A program made the position numbers and the translations under genes. Below are positions 44,726 to 63,430 of a DNA stretch of 64,000 nt, in pieces. The DNA is taken from the NCBI GenBank assembly GCA_903844735.1, contig CAIMUX010000127.1, positions 1 through 64,000 of the forward strand, read 5' to 3'. Positions within the stretch are counted from its first letter, which is position 1; every line of letters starts with the position of its first letter. Source of the DNA: Candidatus Eiseniibacteriota bacterium (GTDB lineage Bacteria; Eisenbacteria; RBG-16-71-46; CAIMUX01). Under the pieces are notes generated by a model. The model did not search any database and was not told where the DNA came from. It was given only the letters and a program-made list of their open reading frames with translations.

Positions 44726-45832
44726 ATGACACTGCGCCGAAGCGGGTACGACGGATCGATCCCCCTCGTCGCGGTCGGAATGCTGGTCTCCTTGGTCGTG
44801 ATACCGGCGTCGTCTGCGCGCGCTGGCGCCTATCACGCAGGCGAAACCTCTTATTGCGCCGATTGCCACCTGCAAAGCGGCCCCGCGACCGGCGCCGCGC
44901 CATCTCGGATGGAACTCGTGTCGGAGAACGTGCCGGAGCTGTGCCTCCGGTGTCACGACGGCCGACCGGGAATACCCGACGTGATGGGCGACGACATCAA
45001 CAACCTGACGGAACGGAGTGGCGGCTTCTTCGCTCCGGTAGATGCCGGCAATCCGCGAGGACACGAGCTGTCCCGCCGGGCCACCCTCGCCGCCGCCGAG
45101 TCCGGCTGCGGACTTTGTCACGCACCGGCCGGCCCGCTGGTGTCCCCGTGGAACGCTTCCGCGCAACACGGAGGACTAAGCTGTACCGACTGCCACGATC
45201 CTCACGGCAACAACAACCCGCGCAATCTCCGTCTTCCCTCGGCGCCAGCCGACCCGCCATCCTTCGGACTCTTCATCGCGGCGGGCACCCGGGGACTGGA
45301 CAGGTATGAACGCAGAAACGTGTGCTACGGCACGCTCGGCTCCGATCGCAGCCGTGAGGTGAGCGCGCTATGCCTGGACTGCCACGGAACGTTCGGGGGC
45401 GCCGACGGCCGAAGTCCCGGCGGTCACCGCATCACGCATCCCTCGTATGACAGCCAACGCGGCAACACCAACACCATCGCACAGGGAGCAGCCCGCGGCG
45501 CAACGGATCCCGGCCACTGGGTCCGAGGGGATGGCAGCGGATTCGACGGGACATCCCGGGTGCCGTTTCTCGTGCCCGGGGCACGCGACTTCGCGAGCGC
45601 CTCGGTCGTCGACCCGGCGCGCAACGGTGTGTTCTGTCTGAGCTGCCACAAAGCGCATGGCAGCGGCTCCGCTTTCGGTCTCACCTGGACGTCCCGGGAG
45701 CGCGGCATCGGTCCCCGAGGCTGCGACCAGTGTCACGGGTTGGCGGCTCTTCCGCCGGGTGATGCCCCGGCTGGGAGTGCCGGCGCAACAGCCTCGCGTG
45801 CCGTACTCCACCTCCAGAACCGGTCGGAGTAG
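44726..45832 (+). CDS. Seven-heme c-type cytochrome, exported
   Basis: A 368-residue multiheme protein. MTLRRSGYDGSIPLVAVGML is followed by a hydrophobic stretch and SSARA, a Sec signal. Seven CxxCH motifs are visible: CADCH, CLRCH, CGLCH, CTDCH, CLDCH, CLSCH and CDQCH, several in the DPHG or KAHGSGSAFGL setting typical of cytochrome c3/doubled-CXXCH families. An extra CYGTLG motif at about residue 200 resembles the odd CX8CH motif of the protein at 52727. ATG at 44726 has AAAGGA at suitable spacing; the longer frame is not supported. It is separated from the main cytochrome cluster by an amidase and gene debris. Likely periplasmic or surface electron carrier. Confidence 0.9.
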   Translation: MTLRRSGYDGSIPLVAVGMLVSLVVIPASSARAGAYHAGETSYCADCHLQSGPATGAAPSRMELVSENVPELCLRCHDGRPGIPDVMGDDINNLTERSGGFFAPVDAGNPRGHELSRRATLAAAESGCGLCHAPAGPLVSPWNASAQHGGLSCTDCHDPHGNNNPRNLRLPSAPADPPSFGLFIAAGTRGLDRYERRNVCYGTLGSDRSREVSALCLDCHGTFGGADGRSPGGHRITHPSYDSQRGNTNTIAQGAARGATDPGHWVRGDGSGFDGTSRVPFLVPGARDFASASVVDPARNGVFCLSCHKAHGSGSAFGLTWTSRERGIGPRGCDQCHGLAALPPGDAPAGSAGATASRAVLHLQNRSE

Positions 45833-48595: not shown

Positions 48596-49246
48596 TCAGG
48601 ACTCTTCCACCTGGATCTTCCCGGCTGCTTCCTCGTCCGAGAGCTTCTTCTCGGCATATGCCTTCAGATCGTCGGTCCGAACGCGTAGGACCAGACGAGC
48701 CACGTTCTTTTCCTCGCGGAGGGCGTCATCGTCTACGTATCCGGAGATGACAACCCACTGTCCGGCGGGAAGGTTCGACAGCGTTCCTGCCTCGTCCAAG
48801 AGCAACTCCACCAGCTCCGCCTTCCCTCCCTGGTATAGCTCGAGGGGATCGTCCTCGTCGTGATGGCGGTGCGAGCCGACATTCACGCCGAACAGCCGCA
48901 TCACCGTCCGTTTCCCATGGTGGTGCGAGCGATCCCAGGATCGGATGGCCACGCGGGAGTCATCGTCATCACCGAAGATCTCTACGTAGGAGTCGTCGGC
49001 GTTGATGGCGGCATTGAAGGTAACAATCAGTCCGTAGTCGGGAAGGTAAACCCCGTGGGCGTTGTGGCCGCGTTGAACGAGGAAGTTGGGGCTGTCCAAC
49101 ATCAAGTGGTCTAAAGCCTTCTCCATCGATCTGACCCGGTGATGAATCTGGTCGGAATCGAGAGGATCCGAGGCCCGGGCGCCCCCGGCGACGAGACCGA
49201 TCGCGAGAATTGCAATGCTCCAAACGCGTTGCTGCAGGCGTGTCAT
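48596..49246 (-). CDS. Exported hypothetical protein (216 aa)
   Basis: Family not recognised. MTRLQQRVWSIAILAIGLVA then GGARA form a clear signal peptide. The body is acidic with a His-rich stretch (RSHHHGKRT and GSHRHHDEDD) that could bind metal, and a helical N-terminal part (IHHRVRSMEKALDHLM). The C-terminus holds LVLRVRTDDLKAYAEKKLSD. ATG at 49246 has AAGGAG at seven to eight bases. It lies in opposite direction to the cytochrome genes. Possibly a periplasmic metal-linked protein; this is only suggested by composition. Confidence 0.75.
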   Translation of the reverse strand: MTRLQQRVWSIAILAIGLVAGGARASDPLDSDQIHHRVRSMEKALDHLMLDSPNFLVQRGHNAHGVYLPDYGLIVTFNAAINADDSYVEIFGDDDDSRVAIRSWDRSHHHGKRTVMRLFGVNVGSHRHHDEDDPLELYQGGKAELVELLLDEAGTLSNLPAGQWVVISGYVDDDALREEKNVARLVLRVRTDDLKAYAEKKLSDEEAAGKIQVEES

Positions 49247-49496
49247 GGGTCATCTCCTTTTCATGGGCCCGAGGCGCGGGCGAGACGGGACCTTGTCGAT
49301 CCCCGGCAGTGGCTCCTTGTACGGCCGGCCCCGGCCCGAAGGTTGCAAGCGGCCTTGCGTCTTTTGGAGCGTGACCGCCGTTCGGGGTGAGTCGGGGCGT
49401 GACGGCCGGAACGGGAACCTCCCGTGTGGCGCCGGCGGTGTAATCGCCTGTCCGGCGGCGGGATCTGCGCAGAGCGCACAGGACGCGCAGCACCGC

Positions 49497-49731
49497 GGAG
49501 TCCAACCCGCGTACCAGGACAACGACGACGGCACCGTGGCCGACCGAGAGACCGGGCTCACGTGGGAGAAGGACCGAGTTCTGGCGGATGGACAGGCGCA
49601 AAGTTACACGCGGGGCGGGGCCAAGGACTGCTGCGAGGCGCTTACCCTGGGCGGGTGCTCCGACTGGCGCACGCCGACCATCAAGGAGCTCTTCTCGATC
49701 GCGACGTTCGGCCGCGTCCCCTCGGGGGGAG
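49497..49731 (+). pseudogene. DUF1566/Lcl-type domain fragment
   Basis: Reads YQDNDDGTVADRETGLTWEKD then CCEALTLGGCSDWRTP and TIKELFSI. The pattern DNGDGTV.D..TGL.W.K followed by GG.SDWRLPTIKEL is diagnostic for DUF1566 proteins. The frame continues but the family pattern stops after about 78 codons, and no convincing start or signal precedes it. Confidence 0.7.
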
Positions 49732-49894
49732 ATTTCTGGCGGGTCACGGTAGAGCTGGCCGTTCGAATGCCGTTTGAATCGGTGAGCGCAGCGGCGATCC
49801 GGGGCCCATCTCACGTAGGCGGCCGGATCGGGAGCTCCGTCGCTCCGGAGTCCCTGCGGAGGAAAACCAGAAGAATATCCCATCAGCGAGTCGT

Positions 49895-50029
49895 GGGAGA
49901 TGGCCGAACGTCGGGTTGTCGTTCCAGGAGGTGGTCGCGACCCCTGAAGTCGGCGGGCTGCATCATCACTACCCGCGCATCACTCACTTCGACGCCACCG
50001 CGGCACCGCTGCATCTGGGACTTGGCTGA
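49895..50029 (+). pseudogene. Possible C-terminal remnant of an IS transposase/integrase
   Basis: A 44-codon stretch without a start contains VVATPEVGGLHHHYPRI. A closing P.(V/L)GGLHH.Y motif is typical of the extreme C-terminus of some rve-type transposases. The match is short, so the assignment is tentative. Confidence 0.3.
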
Positions 50030-50205
50030 TCGGCCGCGGAAAATTCCGCACTCCACGTGATTTCCCGGAGACGAGATCCTCCGTGCGATCAGAGATCAGC
50101 CCAATTCCCCTCAACGACTCACCCGCTATCGCCCTAATTCCATTCAATTCATAGCATTAGAGAATCCAATCGAAGCCGGTCACGGTCGGCCGCACTGCCT
50201 CAGGC

Positions 50206-50247: not shown

Positions 50248-51441
50248 GTGCCTATCAATCCCAACACAAGCGACACGCGGCAGGGTTCTCGGACCTCCGA
50301 TGGTGGTCGTTCCAGGCCGGGGCTGCCGGCTTCGTCGGGTCCGTCCCGACCGAAGCCCGGTCGCATCGGTTCGGCAGGACTCGCCACCGGAGCCGCATCA
50401 GTCGAGGCGGGATCCGTGGTTGGGACATTTCTGACTGTGGTGCTCCTAACTGGGACATGTCTGGTTGGGGCATTTCTGGCCGGGGCACCACCGGCAGAAG
50501 CATCCATCCCCCTGGCCGAGCCGGTCTCCGTGCTCGACCGAGTGGGACCGGCTTCCTTCTTCTCCTCGCCGCTGGATGTCGCCGTCGACACCACCGGCGG
50601 ACTCATCGTCATCGCCGACACCGGCAATCACTGCATCCGGATCTTCGATTTGGGCGGCTATCCGATCTCCTCGTTCCCCCACCGGGTGGACGGGGGGCGA
50701 GGGAGCGTGCCGGGGGAACCCAAGGCGCTGGCTGTCGATCGGCAAGGCTTCCTGTACGTGCTCGACGCGCTCGCAAGCTACGTCGACGTTGTGGATCTGC
50801 TCGGCTACGCGGTTCGCCGCATCGACCCGGCCACCATCTCTCCCGGCGGGATCGATACCACGGCGCTCATCTCGGCGGGCGAGCGAAACGAGAACCTAGT
50901 CCCGGTGGCGCTGGCGCTGGATACGGAGGATCGCCTGATCCTCGCGGTGGGGGGTCAGCAGAGCCGGGTCTGGGGTCTTGATGAGCACGACGGGATTCGG
51001 TGGACCCTCGACGGGACCGAGGAGGGCGGCGCACCGTTCGGCGCGATCACCGACCTCTTCGTCGACGGCGAGGGCCGGGTGTTCGTGGTCGATGGGACGA
51101 GCACTCCTGCGGTCCGGGTCTACGCGCCGGGTGGACGGCGGCTCCTGGGCTTCGGGTTGCACGACGTGGGAAACGAGAACTTCTCTCTCCCGACCTCGGT
51201 GGTCTCCACCTCGGACGGCAGGATCTGGGTTCTCGACACCATGCGCCAGGTCATCAAGATCTTCGACGGCGAAGGACGGTTTCTCGACCGGATCGGCGGA
51301 CTCGGCAGGGACATGGGGGCCTTCACCTACCCCTCCGCGCTCGCGATGGACGGGAAGGGCAGCCTCTTCGTCCTGGAGCGGGTGGGCGCGCGCCTGACGA
51401 CGTTTCGGATAGCGGAATCGGTGGTCCAGCAAGCCCCGTGA
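50248..51441 (+). CDS. NHL-repeat beta-propeller protein, membrane-anchored or exported
   Basis: A 397-residue protein. A long, probably disordered N-terminus (to about 55) precedes one hydrophobic segment (VGTFLTVVLLTGTCLVGAFL) and an ALA-type site, so it is exported or anchored. The rest is a six-bladed NHL propeller with repeats of the type FSSPLDVAVDTTGGLIVIAD, TGNHCIRIFD, GEPKALAVDRQGFLYVLD and YPSALAMDGKGSLFVLE. NHL proteins accompany multiheme cytochrome operons in Geobacter-type bacteria. GTG at 50248 has GGAGA at eight bases; an overlapping ATG at 50243 is in another frame. It leads the operon, 80 bp before the six-heme gene. Confidence 0.85.
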   Translation: MPINPNTSDTRQGSRTSDGGRSRPGLPASSGPSRPKPGRIGSAGLATGAASVEAGSVVGTFLTVVLLTGTCLVGAFLAGAPPAEASIPLAEPVSVLDRVGPASFFSSPLDVAVDTTGGLIVIADTGNHCIRIFDLGGYPISSFPHRVDGGRGSVPGEPKALAVDRQGFLYVLDALASYVDVVDLLGYAVRRIDPATISPGGIDTTALISAGERNENLVPVALALDTEDRLILAVGGQQSRVWGLDEHDGIRWTLDGTEEGGAPFGAITDLFVDGEGRVFVVDGTSTPAVRVYAPGGRRLLGFGLHDVGNENFSLPTSVVSTSDGRIWVLDTMRQVIKIFDGEGRFLDRIGGLGRDMGAFTYPSALAMDGKGSLFVLERVGARLTTFRIAESVVQQAP

Positions 51442-51521: not shown

Positions 51522-52526
51522 ATGAAGAAGTCCGCAATTCTTCTCGCGCTCGTCGCGACGGTTCTCGCCGCGCCGCTTGCGCTGGCCGGTGACTTTCACC
51601 GGGGCACGAGTCTCGTCTGCTCCGACTGCCACGTCATGCACTACAGCCAGGCACACGGATACAACGCCGACGGCGGCGGCATCTACAACCCGGTCGGCAC
51701 GACCGGTCCCTACGAGCGTCTGCTCCGTAACGACGTCAACGACCTCTGTCTTGGCTGCCACGACGGTGCCAGCTTCGCCCCCGACGTCCTCGAAGGACAC
51801 GGCAACGGGTACGTCCGCTCCGCCGGCGCCCTGAACCGCGGCGGCGCGGCACCTTACTCTCATGCTTCCGGTCACACTCTCGATTCCATGGATCCGGCTC
51901 CCGGCGGCGCCGGGGTTCCCCCGACTGCGGGTCTCAACTGCACGAACTGCCACAGCGCGCACAGCAGCACCTCCTACAACAGTTTCCGGAACCTGCGGCG
52001 GGTCGGCACCGATCCCAACCGGATTGTCATCGATTACGCCGCCGGCACCAATGATCTGCTCACGGACGTCTACGAGGTCAACGGCGCCGGCACCGGCCTC
52101 GCCGCCCACTACGGCGTCGACAACGTCTGGTACAACGAGCCCGACCAGACCAAGTCCGACTACGCCGGCTTCTGCAAGAGCTGCCACGTCGATTTCCACG
52201 GCACCAGCACGGATGCCAACATGAACGTCGGCGGCGACTGGGTCCGCCACCCGAACGCCGACGCAAACTTCTCCGGCAGCAACCTCACGCAGTACAACGG
52301 CAAGACGAACAAGGCCAAGATCATGAGCAACTCGCTCGACAAGACGGTGGCCCCGGCCGACGCGACCCCGTCCTGCTTTAGCTGCCACAAGTCCCACGGC
52401 AACCAGAACGCGTTCGGCCTGGTCTACCTGACCGGCACCGGCACGGTCACCGAGCAGGGCGATGACGTCAATGCCAACCAGCGTGCGGTCTGCAAGCAGT
52501 GCCACACCCAGGGCGGCAATCCGTGA
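51522..52526 (+). CDS. Six-heme cytochrome, OmcS-like (putative nanowire subunit)
   Basis: A 334-residue exported cytochrome; MKKSAILLALVATVLAAPLA, ending LAG, is the signal. CxxCH hemes lie at residues 33, 76, 140, 218, 285 and 324. The setting of each motif follows Geobacter OmcS as I remember it: CSDCHVMHYS near the N-terminus, CLGCH, CTNCHSAH, FCKSCHVDFH followed about 20 residues later by VRHPNADANF, CFSCHKSHGNQNAFGL, and a final QRAVCKQCH close to the C-terminus. Six hemes and at least ten further His residues would allow bis-His ligation. OmcS subunits stack into micrometre-long conductive filaments outside the cell. ATG at 51522 has GGAGG eight bases upstream. Relationship to OmcS is a pattern match, not an alignment. 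Confidence 0.88.
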   Translation: MKKSAILLALVATVLAAPLALAGDFHRGTSLVCSDCHVMHYSQAHGYNADGGGIYNPVGTTGPYERLLRNDVNDLCLGCHDGASFAPDVLEGHGNGYVRSAGALNRGGAAPYSHASGHTLDSMDPAPGGAGVPPTAGLNCTNCHSAHSSTSYNSFRNLRRVGTDPNRIVIDYAAGTNDLLTDVYEVNGAGTGLAAHYGVDNVWYNEPDQTKSDYAGFCKSCHVDFHGTSTDANMNVGGDWVRHPNADANFSGSNLTQYNGKTNKAKIMSNSLDKTVAPADATPSCFSCHKSHGNQNAFGLVYLTGTGTVTEQGDDVNANQRAVCKQCHTQGGNP

Positions 52527-52574
52527 TCTAAGACCCTCCAGTCCGTCGACGAACTCGACGGACGCAGGCAAGAC

Positions 52575-52606
52575 ACCGGCCGGGGTCCACGCGGATCCCG
52601 GCCGGT
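52575..52606. terminator. Strong 10-bp hairpin after the six-heme gene
   Basis: ACCGGCCGGG (52575-52584) and CCCGGCCGGT (52597-52606) form a perfect stem with a 12-base loop, 48 bases past the stop. With no T-run it may be a processing or partial-termination signal that raises six-heme transcript over the genes downstream. Confidence 0.55.
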
Positions 52607-52726
52607 CCTCACCGGGGCCGGCCGGGTGTAGACTGCCTCGGATTCAGGATCCCCGATCGAAGATCAGGCTGCGACGGCGAACGCCCGCACCGGAGCCTGG
52701 AGACCGCCCCGACGGAGGAGGTTGCC

Positions 52727-53827
52727 ATGTCCTGGTGGATTCTCTTCTTCCTTGCTCTCGTCACGGAGAAGAGCGGCGGTGCCGCCAACCCGCACTTCGA
52801 CCCCGCCTCGGGCGTGAATCGAGTACCCACCGTCCCGCCTACCATCGGCGACTGCTCGCAGTGTCACCGCCTCCATGGCGATGAGGGTGAAGTCCCTTCG
52901 GCGAAGACTCTCTTCACCATCGACGACAACATGCTTTGCTACACAGCCGGGGGGCCGAGTGGATGCCACGGTGCACTCCCGGCCGGCTACCCCGCGACGG
53001 AGGAAGACCGGATGCCCGCCGCCTCGGACGCTCCCGGTTATTTCGAGGTCAACGCCGGCGGGCAACGAGTAGCGGGCGTCCTCGTGCGGCGCCGCTGGCC
53101 GGGCAGCACCGTCTACGAGGATGCCCGCGCCTTCGGGGCCGGCCACTCCTATTCGCCGCACCGCAACGACGTCGACATGCCGCGTACGGACGAACTCGGT
53201 CACGGGCTTTGCCTCAACTGCCACGATCCGCACGAAGGGCGGTCCCAATTTGATCTCACCAGCCGGGTGTACCAGGCCTACGGCGGTCCTTGGGCGCGCA
53301 CCGCTGCCGCCCGACTCGCCCTCTGCCTCGGCTGTCACTCTACCCAGGGCCCCTTTGGCATGGACGAGGAAAACCAGCGAATCGCGGACTTCTACAATCG
53401 CGGCGTGAATCCGGACGGAACCGCCGGACACGCCATCCGGAAGAACCCACGGGTCGCCATCTCGTGGCCGTCGCACGTCCGGGCCGGCGACTTTCTTCCT
53501 TGCTACGATTGCCACAACCCACACGGATCGCGCGGACATGATGGCACCGGCGCCAACGGCTTCTGTCTGAGCGACCAACGCCCCGGATGGACGGGGCTCA
53601 CCCATACCCGCACCGATCCAGCACAAAGTCGCCGTTTTTGCCTCGGCTGCCACATCCCCTCCGACGGTGTGGCGGGATCGCAGCAGGTCGAGGGCATCGT
53701 GATGAACACCCTTTCCAACAAGGGCGAGCATGCATCGTCGTCTTTGGAGGGCTGCTTCGACTGCCACGGCAACGACTACGCCAGCCCAACCTCTTTCAAC
53801 GTCCACCATCCGGCGAGAAACGACTGA
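52727..53827 (+). CDS. Multiheme cytochrome with six CxxCH and one CX8CH motif
   Basis: A 366-residue protein with a short N-terminal hydrophobic segment (MSWWILFFLALVT). Hemes: CSQCH at 43, CLNCH, CLGCH, CYDCH, CLGCH and CFDCH, in the pattern NCHDPHEGRSQFDL and CHNPHGSRG common to the doubled-CXXCH family. At residues 71-81, CYTAGGPSGCH has eight residues between the cysteines; it sits where related proteins have a normal CxxCH, so it may be a non-canonical heme site or a lost one. ATG at 52727 has GGAGGAGG seven bases upstream. The next gene starts 1 base after its stop. Probably the periplasmic or surface partner of the six-heme protein. Confidence 0.88.
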   Translation: MSWWILFFLALVTEKSGGAANPHFDPASGVNRVPTVPPTIGDCSQCHRLHGDEGEVPSAKTLFTIDDNMLCYTAGGPSGCHGALPAGYPATEEDRMPAASDAPGYFEVNAGGQRVAGVLVRRRWPGSTVYEDARAFGAGHSYSPHRNDVDMPRTDELGHGLCLNCHDPHEGRSQFDLTSRVYQAYGGPWARTAAARLALCLGCHSTQGPFGMDEENQRIADFYNRGVNPDGTAGHAIRKNPRVAISWPSHVRAGDFLPCYDCHNPHGSRGHDGTGANGFCLSDQRPGWTGLTHTRTDPAQSRRFCLGCHIPSDGVAGSQQVEGIVMNTLSNKGEHASSSLEGCFDCHGNDYASPTSFNVHHPARND

Positions 53828-53828
53828 G

Positions 53829-55535
53829 ATGATCCGGTGGCCGCGGAACTACAGGGCCGTTGCCGCGTCGGCCTGGCTTCGGGCCGGGCTGAACCTCATG
53901 ATCCGGGTGGCGTTCCTGGTCTCGGCGGTGAACTCGCTCGCGGCAGCCCAATGGGAAATGCGCCTGACCGCCAACTATCAGGACGCGCGCTACGCCGGCG
54001 TCGCGTTCCGTTCGTCCACGCAGGAAATCCTCGCCCGGCGGCGGTTCAGCCTGAATGATGAATCGAGCCTCGCGGTTTCGGCTCGGCTCTCTCACGACAA
54101 CGATTTCCGCGCCGACGACGACCTGTACCGAGGCTACGGTGATGCCGAATTCCGCAGCGCGCTCATCGACCTGTTCCTGCGCGTTCGTCCCGACCAGCGG
54201 CAGGCAGCCACGCTGCCGGCCACCTGGCGCCAGGAGGAGCGATCATGGGGTGGCACACTCCATCTCGACCGGGGTCCAGGAGTTACATACAACGAGGGGC
54301 GGTATCGACGGGTCCAGCGGTTTCCCGGCATCGTGAGAGGAGAGACGAGGAACCGGCGCCTCACGAGCTCCTGGAGCATCCTGGGCCTGGATCTCGACTA
54401 CGGTTACACTTGGGCGGAGAACAACCGCAAGGTGGACGACCCCACGGCCGGACCTATTCCGAACAACATCACCCTGGATCACGCGGGCGGTGTCTCCTTC
54501 GCCCGCACCGTCATGGGCGCCGTCCAGGTCGGTGCCGGCTACCGCCGGGCCGATACGCAACGGAAGCGCCGCTTCCCGGCGGACAGTGTGGGAACGCCTC
54601 GAAGCACGTTGAGCACTCATATCATCGGCAATCAGGCCGACCTCCGCCTGAGTGCGCAACCGTGGAAACCGGTGCAATTCAGCGCCGTCAGCGGCTGGGC
54701 GGAGACAACGACCCACGGAGGAGGCGCCGCGACGCGCCTGGACCGAAACTTCGATGTCAGCGTCGGCGCGACGTGCCGCCCGTGGCGCGGGCTCGGCATC
54801 GACATGCAGCGGGCTTTCCAGGAACAACACACCGGCACCTTCGCCACCCGCGGCGACTATCTGCGGGCTCGGCTCGGGGCGTCGGGCAACATCAGCCCCG
54901 ACGTACGGCTATCCGGAGATTTCAGCCACAGCGAAGCCGTGGGCCGTAGCGACGAGGCGGGCGCCTCCGATCAGGTTACCGTCGGGATGAGCGGTCGGCT
55001 TCGCGCCGGTGCCGAGATGTCCATCTCGGCAGCCGGCTCACGTCTCGTGGGCGTTTCGGCCGACATGCGCTACCAGGTGACCGAAACGGCGGAGTTGCGG
55101 CTCCAACCGATCAAAGCCCTTCGGTGCAACCTGGCGATGCAGGGGTTCGCATTGGGGTCCACACCCGACCCGGGTTCGCCCGATCGGGTGCAGTATCGAG
55201 CCGAGATCCTGGCGGCGGGCGAGGAGGGTGGCGCCGTTTCCATTACCTACAACTCCCGCACGGTGCGCGGGGGTTCATCGGGAGAAAAGTACTCCATCTC
55301 CGGATCCGCGAGCGTCCCTTGGAAAGGAAGCTCGTTCTCCTGGAACGGATCGTTCTCCCGGGCGGCGGATCGCGAGGCTGCGTCCGGGCGCGCGTGGGGG
55401 TACGCTTCGGCTATCTCGGCACGATTGCGTCTCTCACGGCAGGCTGACGTCAATCTGTCCCGGAGTCTTAGTCTTCCGGCGATCGGGGATGGGAATTCCA
55501 CGTGGATCGCCTCGGTCCAGCAGACGATCCGTTGA
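53829..55535 (+). CDS. Outer-membrane beta-barrel (putative porin of the electron conduit)
   Basis: A 568-residue exported protein. The N-terminus is basic then hydrophobic (AGLNLMIRVAFLVSAVNSLA, cleavage after AAA), followed by alternating amphipathic strands: WEMRLTANYQDARYAGVAFR, SSLAVSARLSHDN, LDLDYGYTWAENN, and a terminal ISARLRLSRQADVNLSRS, with aromatic-ended strands throughout and a C-terminal IR. The barrel could hold more than 20 strands. In porin-cytochrome conduits (MtrB/PioB type) such a protein carries multiheme cytochrome through the outer membrane. No N-terminal CxxC as in MtrB is seen. The start ATG at 53829 is one base from the upstream stop (TGAGATG), which decides it. Confidence 0.8.
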   Translation: MIRWPRNYRAVAASAWLRAGLNLMIRVAFLVSAVNSLAAAQWEMRLTANYQDARYAGVAFRSSTQEILARRRFSLNDESSLAVSARLSHDNDFRADDDLYRGYGDAEFRSALIDLFLRVRPDQRQAATLPATWRQEERSWGGTLHLDRGPGVTYNEGRYRRVQRFPGIVRGETRNRRLTSSWSILGLDLDYGYTWAENNRKVDDPTAGPIPNNITLDHAGGVSFARTVMGAVQVGAGYRRADTQRKRRFPADSVGTPRSTLSTHIIGNQADLRLSAQPWKPVQFSAVSGWAETTTHGGGAATRLDRNFDVSVGATCRPWRGLGIDMQRAFQEQHTGTFATRGDYLRARLGASGNISPDVRLSGDFSHSEAVGRSDEAGASDQVTVGMSGRLRAGAEMSISAAGSRLVGVSADMRYQVTETAELRLQPIKALRCNLAMQGFALGSTPDPGSPDRVQYRAEILAAGEEGGAVSITYNSRTVRGGSSGEKYSISGSASVPWKGSSFSWNGSFSRAADREAASGRAWGYASAISARLRLSRQADVNLSRSLSLPAIGDGNSTWIASVQQTIR

Positions 55536-55579: not shown

Positions 55580-56176
55580 TTGAGCGCAGGCCGGCGCGAC
55601 ATGTGGCAAAGGACGAGAGGATGGGTTCTCCTCCTTCTGGCGGCAGGACTCGGCGCCGGATGCGCCGGAAACCAGACGTTTGTGCATCCCGATGCCGACA
55701 TGGGGTTCTATGAGAAGGTGGGCGTACTCCCGTTCGCCACGCTGGGTGTCGACCGCCTGGCCGGGGACAAGGTGTCGTCCTCATTCACCACGCACCTCCT
55801 CGTCGCCCGCCGGATGCAGGTGGCCGAGCCGGGACAATTTCTCGCCGGCTACCTCAAACAGATGGGCGAAAACACAGCTCCTCCCATTGGGCTCTCCCGG
55901 GAAAAGCTGACCGCCATCGGCCAGGAGACCGGCGTGCAGGGTGTGTTCGAAGGAACGGTCCGGGACTTCGACTTCACGCGGGGAGCCGCCCCTCGCCCGC
56001 TCATTTCGGTCGAAGTCCGGCTCGTCGATGTCGCCACCGGCGATATCGTCTGGTCAACCAGCGTGACCAAGGTGGGCAAAGCGATGGTCCCGATCCTGGG
56101 CGTAGGCGGCGTGCGCACCCTGGCCGAGCTCACCGAGGAGATCGCCGCGGAGTTGGTCGGGAGGCTCCCGGGATGA
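55580..56176 (+). CDS. Lipoprotein with CsgG/TolB-N-like fold (198 aa)
   Basis: Begins at TTG 55580 (AAGGAGG four bases upstream), giving LSAGRRDMWQRTRGWVLLLL then AAGLGAGC with a lipobox Cys; ATG 55601 lacks a ribosome site. The body KVGVLPFATLGVDRLAGDKV, LTAIGQETGVQGVFEGTVRD and VEVRLVDVATGDIVWS follows the fold of CsgG- or TolB-N-like periplasmic proteins. It likely sits in the outer membrane, inner leaflet. It overlaps the next gene by ATGA. Paralogous in design to the lipoprotein that follows. Confidence 0.8.
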   Translation: MSAGRRDMWQRTRGWVLLLLAAGLGAGCAGNQTFVHPDADMGFYEKVGVLPFATLGVDRLAGDKVSSSFTTHLLVARRMQVAEPGQFLAGYLKQMGENTAPPIGLSREKLTAIGQETGVQGVFEGTVRDFDFTRGAAPRPLISVEVRLVDVATGDIVWSTSVTKVGKAMVPILGVGGVRTLAELTEEIAAELVGRLPG

Positions 56177-56826
56177 GCACGCCGTCGCACCGGACCCGAC
56201 ACTCTCCTGCGGGGCTGCCTGCGGTCGCGGCGAGGGCCATGCTCCTTCTCCTCTGTGGCTGCGCCGCGGGGCCAAGAACATTCCGCGGACCCGGTCCGGG
56301 GGTCCCGGTGGGTTCGGTCGTCGCCGTGGTGCCGCTCGTCAATCTGACCGACAATGAGACCGCCCCCCGCCTCATCACCGAGAAATTGCTTCTGGAGCTC
56401 GGTCGCCTTCATCACTTTCAGGTCCAGGATCCCGGCATAGTTCTCGGCTACCTCCGTGAGCTCCGGATCCTCGTCCCCGACCGCATGTCCCGCGAACAGA
56501 TGGCTGAACTGGGGTCGCGTTCGGGAGCGCAGTACTTCCTGGTGGGAACCATCGCCGACTGCCGGTCCGGCGAGAACACCCCGGCGGGGGTGCCAGTGGC
56601 GGCGGTCAGCCTGCGTCTCGTTCACGCCGCCAGCGGAACCGTGGCGTGGGCCGGCTCGCTGGCGCGAACCGGCACCGACCGCGAGACTTTCTTCGGTCTC
56701 GGCAAGGTCCGGACCCTGGACCGCCTGAGCGCAGACATCGCCCGGGACCTGGTGCGGGGCATCCGCGGAATCGACCGGATCGGCCCACCCCTCGCAGCTT
56801 CGGCGAGGAGGAAGGAGCAACCGTGA
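56173..56826 (+). CDS. Second CsgG/TolB-N-like lipoprotein (217 aa)
   Basis: MSTPSHRTRHSPAGLPAVAA leads to RAMLLLLCGC, a lipobox with Cys30. VAVVPLVNLTDNETAPRLI, EQMAELGSRSGAQYFLVGTI and VSLRLVHAASGTVAWAG repeat the order of motifs in the previous lipoprotein, so the two are diverged paralogues. CsgG-like proteins form outer-membrane secretion pores or assist export of extracellular fibres, which would suit a filament-forming cytochrome. ATG at 56173 overlaps the upstream stop; the stop overlaps the next GTG. Confidence 0.78.
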   Translation: MSTPSHRTRHSPAGLPAVAARAMLLLLCGCAAGPRTFRGPGPGVPVGSVVAVVPLVNLTDNETAPRLITEKLLLELGRLHHFQVQDPGIVLGYLRELRILVPDRMSREQMAELGSRSGAQYFLVGTIADCRSGENTPAGVPVAAVSLRLVHAASGTVAWAGSLARTGTDRETFFGLGKVRTLDRLSADIARDLVRGIRGIDRIGPPLAASARRKEQP

Positions 56827-57368
56827 GTCCCCCGGATCCGCGGCTCCCCATTCTGCGTTTGCGGTCCCGCTTCGGGGCACCCGCCCAGGTATCGCGGCTG
56901 AGCCGTCTGGCGGGCGTCCTAGTCACTGGCGTTCTGGTCACCGGCCTACTGCTCGGCGGCTGCGCAGCGCCGTACCAGACGGTCGACCTGCGCATCACCC
57001 ACCGGATGTACCCGCAGTTCAAGGAGCAACACACTGCCGCACCGGGAGAGCGGTTCCAGGTCGGCGACACCGACTACAGCGCACGGACCGCCGGATTCCT
57101 GCCCGACTTCTTGATGGACGAGAAGACGGGGAAGGTCTCCTCGCGAGGCAAGCAACCGCGCAATCCGGCCTTCCAGATCGAGGTGTTCCAGGCGGACACC
57201 TTGGTGGAGCGGTCCTGGGCATTCCTGAAGGGCAGTCCCCCGCATTTTGGCCGTCGTTCGTTGCTCAACTTCGAGGTTGAACGGATCGTTTGGAAGCCGG
57301 GGCGGGGCCCCATCGACAGCACGTCCACGCCTGACGCCCGGGGTCACGAATCCCAGAGCACGCCGTGA
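56823..57368 (+). CDS. Lipoprotein with DUF2155-like domain (181 aa)
   Basis: The GTG start at 56823 overlaps the upstream stop (GTGA). After a basic N-terminus, LAGVLVTGVLVTGLLLGGC is the lipoprotein signal. The body contains FQVGDTDYSARTAGFLPDF, MDEKTGKVSSRGKQPRNPAF and WAFLKGSPPHF, a set I associate with small proteins found beside multiheme cytochrome genes and with DUF2155. These are probably periplasmic, on the outer membrane. Role in cytochrome assembly or anchoring is likely from context. Confidence 0.75.
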   Translation: MSPPDPRLPILRLRSRFGAPAQVSRLSRLAGVLVTGVLVTGLLLGGCAAPYQTVDLRITHRMYPQFKEQHTAAPGERFQVGDTDYSARTAGFLPDFLMDEKTGKVSSRGKQPRNPAFQIEVFQADTLVERSWAFLKGSPPHFGRRSLLNFEVERIVWKPGRGPIDSTSTPDARGHESQSTP

Positions 57369-57414: not shown

Positions 57415-60400
57415 GTGAAGGATGTACGGGTCGCGGTGGGGATTCTTGTGCTGGGGCTGACCTGCTGGCTGGCCGGGACCGGGGTGACCGCGAAGAAGGA
57501 CTCGAGTCGCGATTGCGCCGAATGCCACAAGGAAGCGTTGGAGAAGTTCCGAGCCGGCCAGGTCCATGCCCCCGTGGCGCAGGGCGACTGCAAGGCCTGC
57601 CACAAGAGCCACGGGTTCTCCCAGAAGCTGGTGCTCGTGGCCGGACCACCTCAGGTCTGCACCGGATGCCACCCCGGCGAGGGGGCCGAGGGAGCCAAAC
57701 GCTCGGGCCACCCGATCCCCCCGCGTGGTGACTGCCTCGTCTGCCACCAGCCGCACAACGCCCCGGAACATGCCCTCATTCGCCGCTACGACGCCGAGAC
57801 GTCGTGCATCGCGTGTCATACGCCGATCAAGGAGGCCATCACTTCGGGCGGGCACCAACCCGCCGCCGAGGGGAAGTGCGACGCCTGTCATCAGGTCCAT
57901 GGCAACCAGAGGGCCGGTCTGCTGGTGAACGATCCCCTGCCGCTCTGCCTCTCCTGTCACGGTGGCACGATCGAGGCGGTCGCCGGAAAGCACGCCGGCG
58001 AAGGCTGGAAGAGCCGTGCCTGCCTCGACTGTCACGATCCGCACGGTGCCACGGACAAGGGTCTGCTCGTCGCGGGTGGCCACGCACCCTATCTGCAAGG
58101 CCGGTGCGACGCCTGCCACGCAGGAACCTCGGGCGGGGATCTCAAGGCGGCCGAACCGGATCTCTGCACAGCTTGCCACGCCGGCAAGATCGGCCTAGCC
58201 GATCGAGCCCACCCGCATGACCCCGCCTCGGGTGGCACCTGCACCACCTGCCACGCCCCGCACGCCGGCAAGGGAAAAGGAATCCTCAAAGAGGAGCCGC
58301 TCAAGCTCTGCGGAGAGTGTCACGGCGACATCGCCACCATGGCCGCGTCAGACTCCCTCGCGTCGGTCCACGCGCCGTTCGGCAATCAAGAGTGCTCATC
58401 CTGCCACGATGCCCACGGATCCGACCTCGCCGGACTTCTGCGCAAGGAGTCCGGGCCCCCGTGCGCCCAGTGTCACGCAGCCGTCGACTCGCTCATCACC
58501 GGTGCCAAAGTCCCGCACCCGGCCATGGCCTCGATGACCTGCGTTGAGTGCCACACCCCGCACGCATCCAAGGAGCCCAAACTCCTGCGGGAGGCCGAGA
58601 CCGTGACCTGTGCGAAGTGCCACGACGAGCCACAGCCACAACTCGGGGACAAGTTCGTCCACACCCCCTTCGGCAACGGTGACTGCGGTGCCTGCCACGG
58701 TGTCCATGGGAGCGAAAACACCAAGCTGCTCAAAGCCGAGGGGCGCACGCTCTGCCTCGGCTGTCACACCCGGACGGCCCTCGACGAGAAGGCGCCGATC
58801 GTGCATGCCGGCTTTGTCGACGCCGACTGCCTCACGTGCCACGAAGCCCACCACGGCAAGGAGGAGGCAGGGATCAAGGGAACCCCGGCAGAGGTCTGCG
58901 GCTCCTGCCACTCCGACGTCGTTTCGAAGGCGGCGGTGGAGGCCGCGTTTCACCAGCCGGTCAAGGACGCACAGTGCACCGCCTGTCACAAGGGGCATGC
59001 CGGCAAGGAAAAGGGCCTCCTGATCAGCGGCTCTCGAGCAACCTGCCTCACCTGCCATCAAGCGGTCGGCAAGGAAATGGACCGGAGCGTGGGCCATGCC
59101 CCGGTGCGCGACGGCACCTGCACCGACTGCCACGCCCCCCACGGCTCAAGCGCCCCCGGCATGCTGATCAAGCCGGCCGCCGAATTATGCGGTGGCTGTC
59201 ACGACACCGCGGATCCGAAGGCCTTGGAAAAGCACCACGGCGCCGACATGGCGGGGCTCAACTGTGCGGGCTGCCACCAGCCGCACGGTTCCGAGGGGAA
59301 GGGGCTGATCGCCCGCCAACAACATGCCCCCTTTGCCGCCGGCGAGTGCACCGCCTGCCACGGCGACGGAGTCCCCGGACCACTCACCGGCTCCCAGACT
59401 GCCATATGCGCCAACTGCCACGCCGACCCGACCGCCCCGTCTGAGCCGGGCGAGACGCTGCATCGGCCTGTAGCCGACGGTGCATGCACCGAGTGCCATA
59501 ATCCGCACGCCTCCGAGGCGGATTCACTGCTGGTGGCGCCGCCCAAGCTTCTCTGTCAGAAGTGCCATGCCGACCTTTTCGCGGAGGCGCCGGTTCAGCA
59601 TTCCCCCTTCGCGCAGGGGAACTGCTCCGGTTGCCACGCGGTGCACCGCTCGAAACAGCCAGGCCTGCTCACCGCGCCGGCAACCGAATTGTGCGGCACC
59701 TGCCACACAGCCCTGGCTGATCGGATCAAAGCCGGCAAGCCCCACGGCCCGGTCGCGCAGAACCGATGCGAGGCATGCCACCAGCCACATCAGGGAACCG
59801 AACGGGGGCTCCTCAAGAAACCGCTCAGTGAGCTCTGCGCAACCTGTCACCCGATTAACACCGCGCTGCGCGGCAAACACCGCAACTATGCGCTCGACCG
59901 CGGAGCCTGTACCGGGTGCCACGATCCGCATGTCGTCATGGAACCGGGGATGCTGCTCCCGAACAAACACGCCCCGTACGCCCAGGGGAACTGCGTCGCT
60001 TGCCACGGAAGCGACGGACGGGTCACCGATCTCGGGGAAAAGGCGTGCCTGGGCTGCCACGGTCCCACAAAGGACGAGCTGGGGCGGCCGTTCAATCACA
60101 CCGCAACCCGTGGGGGGCAGGGACCGACGAAGGCCCAAGGGAAGGCCCAGGCAAAGGCCTGTCTCTCCTGCCACTCACCTCACGCCGGAACCGAACCGTC
60201 GCTCCTGGCACGGCCGGGGCAGCAGGCAACCTGCACCGCCTGCCACGATGGAGCGACGTTTCGCGGCAAGTCGAGCCATCTCGATAAGACCCCGGACTGT
60301 ACAACCTGCCATGAGCCCCACGGGGCGGAGCAGCCGAACATGCTCCGTGCGAAGGCGAATGAACTCTGCGGCGGCTGCCACCAGTTCGAGCCGAAGCAAC

Positions 60401-60555
60401 ATCATCCCGTCGGCGATCAATACAAGGACCCGCGGACCGGCGGCCCGCTGACCTGCTTGTCTTGTCACGATCCGCATGCTTCGGCCTTCGAGAAGCAATT
60501 GAAGGCCGACCAGCGGAGGGATCTGTGCATCGAGTGTCACTCGGCAGGGCACTGA
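57415..60555 (+). CDS. Giant c-type cytochrome with about 42 CxxCH motifs
   Basis: A 1046-residue exported cytochrome from GTG 57415 (GGGAGGG upstream). Signal: MKDVRVAVGILVLGLTCWLA. By eye I count 42 CxxCH motifs, from CAECH near residue 34 to CIECH five residues from the end, one per 25 residues on average. They recur in pairs of the form (H-A/S-P-F/V)...C-x-x-C-H-x-(P/A/V)-H-(G/A), LL or GLL, then LC-x-x-CH, a doubled-CXXCH repeat of 45-50 residues. The HAPF and HxPV histidines are probable distal ligands. Such a protein could span tens of nanometres as a wire between periplasm and outer surface. Its last 31 bases overlap the sensor-kinase gene. Confidence 0.93.
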   Translation: MKDVRVAVGILVLGLTCWLAGTGVTAKKDSSRDCAECHKEALEKFRAGQVHAPVAQGDCKACHKSHGFSQKLVLVAGPPQVCTGCHPGEGAEGAKRSGHPIPPRGDCLVCHQPHNAPEHALIRRYDAETSCIACHTPIKEAITSGGHQPAAEGKCDACHQVHGNQRAGLLVNDPLPLCLSCHGGTIEAVAGKHAGEGWKSRACLDCHDPHGATDKGLLVAGGHAPYLQGRCDACHAGTSGGDLKAAEPDLCTACHAGKIGLADRAHPHDPASGGTCTTCHAPHAGKGKGILKEEPLKLCGECHGDIATMAASDSLASVHAPFGNQECSSCHDAHGSDLAGLLRKESGPPCAQCHAAVDSLITGAKVPHPAMASMTCVECHTPHASKEPKLLREAETVTCAKCHDEPQPQLGDKFVHTPFGNGDCGACHGVHGSENTKLLKAEGRTLCLGCHTRTALDEKAPIVHAGFVDADCLTCHEAHHGKEEAGIKGTPAEVCGSCHSDVVSKAAVEAAFHQPVKDAQCTACHKGHAGKEKGLLISGSRATCLTCHQAVGKEMDRSVGHAPVRDGTCTDCHAPHGSSAPGMLIKPAAELCGGCHDTADPKALEKHHGADMAGLNCAGCHQPHGSEGKGLIARQQHAPFAAGECTACHGDGVPGPLTGSQTAICANCHADPTAPSEPGETLHRPVADGACTECHNPHASEADSLLVAPPKLLCQKCHADLFAEAPVQHSPFAQGNCSGCHAVHRSKQPGLLTAPATELCGTCHTALADRIKAGKPHGPVAQNRCEACHQPHQGTERGLLKKPLSELCATCHPINTALRGKHRNYALDRGACTGCHDPHVVMEPGMLLPNKHAPYAQGNCVACHGSDGRVTDLGEKACLGCHGPTKDELGRPFNHTATRGGQGPTKAQGKAQAKACLSCHSPHAGTEPSLLARPGQQATCTACHDGATFRGKSSHLDKTPDCTTCHEPHGAEQPNMLRAKANELCGGCHQFEPKQHHPVGDQYKDPRTGGPLTCLSCHDPHASAFEKQLKADQRRDLCIECHSAGH

Positions 60556-62021
60556 CCGGTTCACTGAAGCGGAAGATCCTGCTCACGAACCTGGTCGTGT
60601 TGAGCCTCATGGTGGGCGCGTCCCATCTGATGACCTACATGCACTGGCGAAGCCACCTCCTGCGCTTCGCCCAGTCGCAGGGGTGGGCCATGTCGTCGAT
60701 CATCAGCCAGCGACTCTACCGCGAGTTCATGGAAGGCGACATCGACGGAATCCGCGACCTCATGCGGGCCATGCTCGACCACCAAGCGGTGCACTCCGTC
60801 CGCGTGACCAACGAGAAGGGGCTGGTGCTTCTATCGACGGTGCGGGAAGAGGAGCACCGGATGACGGTGAAAATCCCCCGCGAGGTGAGCGAGCGCCTGG
60901 AGTGGACCGCCGCCCCCAAGAGACTGACCCGTGGCACCGCCGAGCTGACCTTCTTCGTCCCGATCCCGCGGGGTCCGGAGTGCCGGCAATGCCACTATCC
61001 GGCCGCGCCGCAACTGGCCATCCTCCAACTCGACGTGGAGGCGGATCGGCTCACCCGCATCCTGCGCGGCTCCATCTACCAAGTGATGATCATCACCTCG
61101 GTCACGGTAGGGCTCCTGCTCCTGGCGCTGCACGGTCTCTTCAGGCGTGAGGTCAACCGACCGGTCTCACGGATTCTTTCGGTCATGGAGCGCGCCCGGG
61201 CAGGCGATCTCGAGGTGCGGGTCCCCGCGGGCGGCCCCGACGAGATGGGACAGATCGGCGACGGTTTGAACCGCATGCTGGAGCAGCTCCACGGAGCGCG
61301 GGAGGAGCTACAGACCCTGCACCAGCAGGAGATGGAACGACAAGAGCGACTTGCCACCATCGGCAACCTCGCCTCGGCGGTGGCCCACGAGATCAAGAAC
61401 CCGCTCGCGGGGATCCGCGGCGGGATGGAGGTCTTGGAAGACGGCCTCCCCGCAGGCGACCCGAAGCGCAACCTCACGCGCGAAATCAAGGCCGAGGTCG
61501 ATCGGATCAACCGGATGGTGCGCGATCTCCTCTCGTATTCGCGGCAGCCGAACCCCGAGACCGTTCCCGCTCTTGTCTGCGACCTTCTGGAGGACGTGAT
61601 CACCCAAGCGCGTCAGCTCCCGGATGCCCGTCGGGTGCAGATCCTCCACGAGGCCGGTTGCGGCTGCCGGGTGGCGGTCGACTACCAGCTCATCAAACAG
61701 TCGTTCTTCAATATCATCCAGAACGCCTTCGACGCTATGCCCCACGGGGGCAGTCTCACCGTCACCTGTGAGCACGCTGACGGGAAGGCGCTGATCTGTT
61801 TCGCAGACACCGGCGGCGGCATCGACCCCGTGGTTGCGGCGCGCATCATGCAACCGTTCTTCACCACCCGTCACCGCGGCACAGGACTCGGCCTTCCCAT
61901 CGCGCTGTCGATCGTGGAGGCGCACGGCGGAGAGATCACCTTCGTCGCCGGCCCGGGCCGCGGCGCCGTGTTCACTGTCCACTTGCCCCTCATCGCGGAG
62001 AAGGAGCGTCCCGCATCATGA
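60525..62021 (+). CDS. Sensor histidine kinase with a periplasmic c-type heme motif
   Basis: A 498-residue membrane kinase starting at GTG 60525 (GGAGGG four bases upstream), overlapping the giant cytochrome gene by 31 bases. TM1 is residues 18-38 and TM2 185-206, with a periplasmic domain between. That domain ends in PECRQCHYPAAPQ: CxxCH at 153-157, a covalent heme site in a sensor. A HAMP domain follows, a coiled coil, HisKA with phospho-acceptor His288 in AHEIKNPLAG, and an ATPase with N box QNAFDAM and G boxes DTGGGID, GTGLGLPIA. It probably senses redox or electron-acceptor state and controls the cytochrome operon through the following regulator. Confidence 0.92.
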   Translation: MHRVSLGRALTGSLKRKILLTNLVVLSLMVGASHLMTYMHWRSHLLRFAQSQGWAMSSIISQRLYREFMEGDIDGIRDLMRAMLDHQAVHSVRVTNEKGLVLLSTVREEEHRMTVKIPREVSERLEWTAAPKRLTRGTAELTFFVPIPRGPECRQCHYPAAPQLAILQLDVEADRLTRILRGSIYQVMIITSVTVGLLLLALHGLFRREVNRPVSRILSVMERARAGDLEVRVPAGGPDEMGQIGDGLNRMLEQLHGAREELQTLHQQEMERQERLATIGNLASAVAHEIKNPLAGIRGGMEVLEDGLPAGDPKRNLTREIKAEVDRINRMVRDLLSYSRQPNPETVPALVCDLLEDVITQARQLPDARRVQILHEAGCGCRVAVDYQLIKQSFFNIIQNAFDAMPHGGSLTVTCEHADGKALICFADTGGGIDPVVAARIMQPFFTTRHRGTGLGLPIALSIVEAHGGEITFVAGPGRGAVFTVHLPLIAEKERPAS

Positions 62022-63430
62022 GCACCGCCACCATTCTCATCGTCGACGACGAGCGCCTCCTGCGCCTCACCCTCCGGTCCCGCCTCGAGGACCAAGGCTT
62101 CATTGTCGTCGAGGGCGAAACCGGCGAAGAAGCCGTCCGCATAGTCGGCGAGGAGGACCCCGATCTCGTTCTGCTCGACTACCAGCTTCCCGATCGCAAC
62201 GGCCTGGAGGTGCTCGATATCCTCCTCCAACGCGACCGCGACCTGCCGGTAGTGATGATCACCGGCCACGGCTCGGTGGAAGGCGCGGTGCGGGCGATGC
62301 GCCGCGGTGCCATCGACTACCTGGAAAAACCGTTCGAGTTCGACGCGCTGTTGCTCACCGTCGAGAGCTCGCTACAGACCACGGCGCTGCGGCGCGAGGT
62401 CCGCCGCCTTCGCCGCGAGGCGAGCGAGGCGGGCGGCGCCTCCGAGCTGGTGGGGCGAACCCCGCAGATGCAGGAGCTGAACACTGTCATCGACCGCGTG
62501 GCCCAGTCCGACCCGGCCACTGTGCTGCTTCAGGGCGAGAGCGGCACCGGCAAGAACGTGGTGGCGCGGGCCATACACCAGCGTTCGGTCCGCGCAGAGA
62601 AGCCGTTCGTCACCATCGCCTGCACCTCGCTGCCGGAGAACCTACTCGAAAGCGAACTCATGGGCCATGAGCGCGGCGCCTTCACCGACGCCCACAGCAC
62701 CAAACGCGGGCTGCTCGAAGTGGCCGACGGCGGCACCCTCTTCCTCGACGAGATCGGGGAGCTGCCGCTCTCGCTCCAGGCCAAGCTCCTCCATCTGCTG
62801 GAGGAACGGAGCTTCCGCCGCATCGGCGGGACGCGCACCATCAAGGTCGATGTGCGGATCATCGCCGCCACCAACCGCGACCTGCGCGGCGCGGTAGAGC
62901 GCGGACAGTTCCGGGACGATTTCTACTACCGGCTCAACATCGTGCCGATCTGGATCCCCGCGCTGCGCGAGCGCAAGGCCGATATCCCACTCCTCGTCGA
63001 CACATTCGTCACGCTCTTCAACCGCGACTTCCGCAAAGAAGTGCTGGGAGTGACACCGGCCGTGCTCCAGGTCCTTATGCGCTACCACTGGCCGGGCAAT
63101 GTGCGCGAGTTGAAGAATCTCGTGGAGAGGGTGATGATTCTGGGCGGCGGCCGCCAAGTCGAGCTGGAGGACCTGCCCGTGGAGCTTCGCGGAGGGCCGT
63201 CGCTCACGCCCAACGCCGCAGGCGGTTTTGCACTTCCCGACGGAGGGCTTGACCTCGAAGAGCTCGAGCGCGGCCTGCTCGTGCAGGCCCTTGTGCGCGC
63301 GGGCGGCAACCGCACCCAGGCAGGCAGGCTCTTAGGCCTCAACCGCGACCAGGTGAGCTACCGGGTGGAAAAGTTCAAGATTCGATTCGAAGACGCGGGG
63401 ACCCCGCGACTGCGCGTGCAGCGGGACTAG
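62018..63430 (+). CDS. NtrC-family sigma54-dependent response regulator
   Basis: A 470-residue regulator, ATG 62018 overlapping the kinase stop. REC domain with phospho-acceptor Asp54 in VLLDYQLPDRNG and Lys104 in YLEKPFE; AAA+ domain with Walker A GESGTGK (173-179), the sigma54-contact loop GAFTDA (220-225), Walker B GTLFLDEIGEL and arginine-finger region RDDFYYRLN. A Fis-type HTH closes it (NRTQAGRLLGLNRDQVSYRV). It activates sigma54 RNA polymerase when phosphorylated by the heme-bearing kinase. The TGGCAC-type promoter at 50206 before the NHL/cytochrome operon is a natural target. Confidence 0.95.
   Translation: MSTATILIVDDERLLRLTLRSRLEDQGFIVVEGETGEEAVRIVGEEDPDLVLLDYQLPDRNGLEVLDILLQRDRDLPVVMITGHGSVEGAVRAMRRGAIDYLEKPFEFDALLLTVESSLQTTALRREVRRLRREASEAGGASELVGRTPQMQELNTVIDRVAQSDPATVLLQGESGTGKNVVARAIHQRSVRAEKPFVTIACTSLPENLLESELMGHERGAFTDAHSTKRGLLEVADGGTLFLDEIGELPLSLQAKLLHLLEERSFRRIGGTRTIKVDVRIIAATNRDLRGAVERGQFRDDFYYRLNIVPIWIPALRERKADIPLLVDTFVTLFNRDFRKEVLGVTPAVLQVLMRYHWPGNVRELKNLVERVMILGGGRQVELEDLPVELRGGPSLTPNAAGGFALPDGGLDLEELERGLLVQALVRAGGNRTQAGRLLGLNRDQVSYRVEKFKIRFEDAGTPRLRVQRD

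Follow-up and report, generated by a model that had tools for sequence, protein, structure and literature searches.

The window analysed here, a stretch of 64,000 nucleotides from Candidatus Eiseniibacteriota, carries a hexaheme c-type cytochrome gene that raises a simple question: does a bacterium outside Geobacter make extracellular conducting filaments of the OmcS type? An earlier note on this DNA had been reminded of OmcS by the order of the heme motifs, and had proposed a candidate nanowire flanked by the genes for its export and wiring.

A hexaheme cytochrome with the motifs of OmcS

The gene (positions 51522-52526, forward strand) has an ATG start with GGAGG upstream and codes for a protein of 334 aa, which we annotate as an OmcS-family hexaheme c-type cytochrome and candidate wire subunit. 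As in OmcS, the signal peptide (MKKSAILLALVATVLAAPLALA) stops just before the first ligand His; the mature protein starts from about Gly23 and has 312 aa, about 95 residues fewer than OmcS of Geobacter sulfurreducens (GSU2504; PDB 6EF8, 6NEF). This secreted protein contains six CxxCH motifs (CSDCH, CLGCH, CTNCH, CKSCH, CFSCH, CKQCH) in the same sequence order as the six c hemes of OmcS. Every motif named by the earlier note is present and matches the corresponding residues of the OmcS PDB chain, both at the termini and around hemes 4 and 5: CHVMHYS for CHTMHNS at the N-terminus, CHVDFH for CHTDIH at heme 4, followed by a block RHPNADANF for RHPAGNGAKF, and CHKSH..FGLVY for CHRAH..FNLAY at heme 5. 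The last heme, described as lying after QRA, is found as NQRAVCKQCH and aligns with YQRxLCNKCH of Geobacterales OmcS.

Relation to OmcS and other wire cytochromes

Ordinary annotation would not name this protein, since we could not find any PDB match by single-sequence phmmer, and Pfam returned mainly generic multiheme and paired-CxxCH families; a family profile was needed to expose the relation to OmcS. These two results would suit an ordinary multiheme cytochrome that looks like OmcS simply because both contain CxxCH motifs. However, against the PDB the family profile matched OmcS at 1.1e-10, and at 9.4e-21 with paralogues included in the profile, whereas the next chain reached only 2.8e-5 and OmcE 1e-3, a lead for OmcS of about 15 orders of magnitude, in E-value, over every other multiheme cytochrome in the PDB. 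An hhalign comparison of the window family with 14 Geobacterales OmcS-type proteins, some of them about 70% identical to OmcS, covered all six hemes (99.8%, E=2e-30), with 23% aligned identity to OmcS in the profile comparison. The full-length similarity to OmcS is therefore clearly above that to other multiheme cytochromes. Moreover, distal His outside the CxxCH motifs and the gene cluster are common to both proteins (see below). Profile search, hhalign and distal-His alignment thus contradict the artefact reading, which we regard as extremely improbable. To judge from sequence, the hexaheme protein is unambiguously a distant homologue of OmcS, and its membership of the OmcS family in a broad sense is well supported. 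The second-best chain of the profile search (9yuq chain N) is an unnamed 218-aa multiheme cytochrome, and the 9yuq entry, with 16 chains of it, may be another cytochrome assembly.

The relation to OmcS that the earlier note had proposed is in this way borne out by profile, by hhalign and by 12 matching His. Of the three wire cytochromes to which that note had proposed to align the protein, OmcS is clear, OmcE very weak and OmcZ without any match. OmcE (PDB 7TFS) is also joined by an inter-subunit His, but it has four hemes instead of six, and the osc-type cluster of the window corresponds to OmcS and not to OmcE. Neither OmcZ nor the archaeal cytochrome filaments (8D9M, 8E5F) were matched by the family profile in the PDB at E-values up to 10, and their likeness to the window protein is one of functional analogy only; OmcZ has eight hemes and lacks an inter-subunit ligand (PMC9473688).

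Heme ligands and the inter-subunit histidine

OmcS has 12 histidine ligands (PMC6584659), and one His ligand of its heme 5 is supplied by the neighbouring molecule (PMC12203936). In our alignment, the window family and OmcS share exactly six distal His, namely H26, H40, H118, H147, H243 and H292 of the window protein, corresponding to OmcS H2, H16, H110, H147, H257 and H335. These six are invariant in the 33 family members and, with 12 of 12 axial-ligand positions matched, all the axial ligands are predicted to be His placed as in OmcS.

Among them, H40, present in 33/33 family members, is the equivalent of OmcS His16, which we take to be the ligand that crosses to the next subunit. This equivalent is missing in a paralogue encoded in the window (44726-45832) and in 4 of 20 Geobacterales paralogues; these four proteins (loci L074, L078 and L085), three of which sit beyond the 16-heme/NHL end of the cluster, may be non-wire paralogues. 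The most conserved segments of the family are the surroundings of CHxMH and of heme 5 (entropy 1.06 and 0.84, respectively, versus 1.23-1.97 elsewhere), which in OmcS lie on either side of the bond between subunits. Such conservation fits an interface contact, which is suggestive only, since heme pockets are conserved in general.

Distribution and phylogeny

A scan of one genome per species recovered relatives in 21 loci, and 17 sequences (the window protein included) could be aligned over their full length, with 35-53% identity to the window protein. Orthologues with the same six hemes are present in at least seven phyla (Planctomycetota, Latescibacterota, Zixibacteria, Krumholzibacteriota, Eisenbacteria, Armatimonadota, Myxococcota), which puts the hexaheme protein far beyond chance; in the window's own class, 14 of 47 genomes have the gene. 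The earlier note was right in placing it outside Geobacter. An OmcS relative there is not new in kind, OmcS homologues and osc machinery having already been called widespread (PMC10954620; title of Shen et al. 2025).

In our tree, OmcS and its Geobacterales paralogues come together with good support (100/99), and the window protein falls outside, in a separate supported group of 31 rows where its sister comes from a genome of the same class. Strict orthology, that is, grouping with OmcS rather than with the OmcT/OmcJ/OscC-type paralogues, is not what we observe: the window protein branches as sister to all the OmcS/OmcT/OmcJ/OscC-type proteins together, and is therefore a co-orthologue of the entire Geobacter radiation and not of OmcS alone. 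Bin contamination was considered and is unlikely, as the closest tree relative is a same-class genome that also has the second cytochrome and the two-component pair described below. The paralogous cytochrome at 44726-45832 (forward strand, 7 CxxCH) lies apart from the cluster in the window and adjoins it in Krumholzibacteriota L009; its closest relatives retain the His16 equivalent.

A gene cluster related to osc

The hexaheme gene is embedded in a row of forward-strand genes, several junctions of which overlap. It is preceded by a gene for an NHL beta-propeller with an N-terminal signal sequence (50248-51441, Pfam NHL 8e-19), whose true start is probably downstream of 50248 and which adjoins the hexaheme gene in most Eisenbacteria, Planctomycetota and Geobacterales loci. 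It is followed by a second multiheme cytochrome (52727-53827, 6 CxxCH), whose orthologues in the same place have 5-9 hemes (9 in most Eisenbacteria, 12 in one Zixibacteria locus), and by a large OscE-like outer-membrane beta-barrel (53829-55535). Then come three lipoproteins: lp1 (55604-56176), OscF-like, with a lipobox (GAGC) and a weak LpoB/CsgG resemblance in Pfam; lp2 (56173-56826), OscG-like (Pfam LpoB 4e-6); and lp3 (56823-57368, lipobox LLGGC), which has no convincing family match and is conserved in Eisenbacteria, Latescibacterota and Krumholzibacteriota. The row ends with a 42-heme c-type cytochrome (57415-60555), a sensor histidine kinase (60462-62021; HAMP, HisKA, HATPase) and an NtrC-type sigma-54 response regulator (62018-63430, Pfam Sigma54_activat 2e-68), and homologues of the last two are found near the cluster in L036. 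The kinase carries one CxxCH in its sensor region (ECRQCHYP), as does its L036 homologue, and is possibly a covalently bound heme sensor. Ahead of the NHL gene, ORF 49215-50060 is probably a separate small gene; it contains the motif WRTPTIKEL, typical of DUF1566/Lcl domains. A sigma-54 promoter search gave 31 matches versus 21 expected, with no convincing site upstream of the operon, and we could not find any sigma-70-like promoters.

The osc (omcS companion) cluster comprises OscC-OscJ (described by Shen et al. 2025, through PMC13194489 and PMC12977616). HMMs built from the window-type cluster families were run on Geobacterales loci, where their matches followed the same order: a barrel at 1e-4 to 1e-8, lp1 at about 1e-34, lp2 at up to 6e-50, then one protein with 26 hemes at up to 4e-170 and another with 16 hemes at about 1e-93. 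The window thus has the hexaheme gene, counterparts of OscE, OscF and OscG, and the giant cytochrome in osc order, with an NHL protein beside the hexaheme gene and a histidine kinase and sigma-54 regulator next door, like GSU2506/2507 near omcS. What the earlier note had seen as an export and wiring neighbourhood, with its NHL propeller, barrel (28 predicted strands), LpoB/CsgG-like lipoproteins of weak resemblance and 42-CxxCH cytochrome, turns out to be a relative of the Geobacter osc cluster with matching gene order.

However, we could not find the OscD propeller in the window nor, beyond a marginal propeller match, at its place in other Eisenbacteria clusters, and we could not find the OscH prolyl isomerase in the window or in Eisenbacteria clusters. 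The second cytochrome and the third lipoprotein stand in their places, whereas Geobacterales have a YncE-like propeller between the hexaheme gene and the barrel, and a protein that we read from its sequence as SurA/PPIase-like between lp2 and the 26-heme gene. OscD-like and OscH-like proteins are present in Myxococcota L006, and OscD-like ones also in Planctomycetota. Both have been tied to filament morphology and folding (PMC13194489, citing Shen et al. 2025). The block from the NHL gene to the 42-heme gene recurs in Eisenbacteria and Krumholzibacteriota, in Latescibacterota without an adjacent NHL gene, and partly in Zixibacteria. The missing OscD and OscH hence define a second cluster architecture in Eisenbacteria, Krumholzibacteriota and Latescibacterota; judging by these genes, the window encodes a variant of the osc-type machine.

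Structure models and the role of the barrel

The AF2 model of the barrel has about 28 strands (pLDDT 70), and its top Foldseek match is MtrB (6r2q_B, E 5e-7, TM 0.35). This match is what one would expect if the barrel were an electron conduit instead of an export pore, forming with the 42-heme and second cytochromes an MtrCAB-type porin-cytochrome conduit that has the hexaheme protein as its outer extension, an arrangement compatible with filament formation. As in MtrCAB, the large barrel adjoins multiheme cytochromes, here on both sides in the operon, and to go by heme spacing 42 hemes could span the periplasm. However, the match reaches a TM-score of just 0.35, similar to those of other large barrels, the giant cytochrome has 42 hemes as against 10 in MtrCAB, the cluster includes an OmcS-type subunit, and for the Geobacterales counterparts, OscE-G, a role in OmcS secretion has been proposed (PMC13194489). 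We consider a conduit rather unlikely, and an OscE-like export barrel remains our preferred reading.

AF2 modelled the hexaheme monomer with low confidence (pLDDT 58, pTM 0.62), and Foldseek did not match the model to OmcS. Foldseek with OmcS or OmcE is reported to return only themselves and close homologues (PMC9473688), so the missing match neither supports nor refutes the relation.

The 42-heme cytochrome and electron supply

On the profile of the 42-heme family, the 26-heme protein of five Geobacterales-type clusters aligns as one domain to positions 8-652, and the 16-heme protein of six such clusters to positions 665-1040. By heme-register scoring the 26-heme part fits best at heme 1, and the 16-heme part is tied between registers 27 and 17. 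These alignments indicate that the 42-heme protein corresponds, in one chain, to OscI (26 hemes) followed by OscJ (16 hemes), which are two proteins in the osc cluster.

Elsewhere in the genome, one block (L097, G000:C103:158000-172000) codes for 12-, 11- and 19-heme proteins and a 5-heme protein that we would call NapC/NirT-like. The 11- and 19-heme proteins have C-terminal membrane segments resembling, by our own reading, cytochrome b, and are in this respect like the CbcL-type quinol oxidases, where multiheme proteins are fused to cytochrome b-like membrane segments. We found few other paired-CxxCH genes in the genome, and much of its paired-CxxCH cytochrome complement therefore lies in the osc-type cluster.

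A hairpin after the hexaheme gene

The hexaheme gene is followed by GC-rich stem-loops without a U tract (52540-52610, forward strand), with a 9-bp stem at 52541-52563 and a 13-bp stem at about 52576-52605, and the 200 bases after the stop codon (52527-52726) have an unusually stable fold (z -3.2). For 9 of 33 hexaheme genes, a perfect stem of at least 10 bp occurs no more than 110 bases past the stop, versus 0.7% of random segments, and we found none after the nhl, second-cytochrome, barrel and lp1-lp3 genes. The stem sequences are unrelated between most loci. A terminator was first considered and set aside, the U tract being missing in most loci. By analogy with the intercistronic hairpins of other operons, the structure, which is not universal, would keep subunit mRNA above machine mRNA.

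Filament subunit or monomeric carrier

Taking these data together, we think it likely that the product of gene 51522-52526 is the building block of an extracellular cytochrome filament of the OmcS type, and the bacterium probably builds OmcS-like conducting filaments; for the window protein, we infer polymerisation. The preprotein would be exported by Sec, have its six hemes attached in the periplasm, and exit through the OscE-like barrel with the help of the OscF/OscG-like lipoproteins. Subunits would then join head to tail, H40 (CHxMH) of one completing heme 5 of the next, to give a continuous heme chain. Quinol-oxidising cytochromes of the inner membrane would feed the 42-heme cytochrome, which in turn would relay electrons through the periplasm to the wire base, and the second cytochrome and lp3 presumably have roles in the same system.

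Several lines of evidence favour a filament: OmcS as the best PDB match, the hhalign over six hemes, the invariant distal His, the conserved interface segments and the osc gene order, as well as the recurring hairpin, which fits a high subunit stoichiometry, and the multiheme proteins with cytochrome b-like segments elsewhere in the genome. We count against it the shorter chain, the sister position in the tree, the missing OscD and OscH, the weak AF2 monomer without a fold match, and the lack of other known polymerising members among the OmcS homologues (PMC12977616). Even in Geobacter, the physiological need for OmcS wires is disputed (PMC11077965).

The hexaheme protein might instead have the OmcS fold but always remain a monomer, carrying electrons in the periplasm or at the cell surface; the osc-type genes would then export or contact it as a single unit. 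Among OmcS homologues only OmcS is known to polymerise, most of the others having no shown filament (PMC12977616), and the absence of OscD and OscH from the cluster, together with a paralogue in the same window that lacks the His16 equivalent, would be in keeping with such a carrier. However, H40 is invariant even though heme 5 of a soluble monomer would have to draw its sixth ligand from elsewhere, for which the only spare near-invariant His of the family are H45 and H226, and the hairpin suggests more subunit than machine. We therefore regard a monomer as unlikely, and retain the filament subunit as the preferred reading.

Implications

Solved cytochrome-wire structures come so far from Geobacter and two archaea, and the sinuous OmcS filament has a rise of about 47 Å and a pitch of about 200 Å (PMC12954529). 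Eisenbacteria, Krumholzibacteriota and Latescibacterota may possess a compact wire machine, with a shortened OmcS-type filament exported without OscD/OscH and fed by one periplasm-crossing 42-heme cytochrome, a scenario that we put forward tentatively and to which we give somewhat less than even weight. If true, one operon would encode a complete wire from the periplasm to the outside. Telling wire subunits from paralogues with HMMs across genera has been found hard (PMC12977616), and a conserved His16 equivalent offers a residue-level test for distinguishing probable wire subunits from paralogues that do not form wires. The presence in uncultured phyla of a simpler yet conserved operon of the osc type provides concrete proteins for imaging, points to the barrel, two lipoproteins and 42 hemes as the core of the osc parts, the others being dispensable, and implies that lineages seen only in metagenomes also have access to mineral or syntrophic electron transfer.
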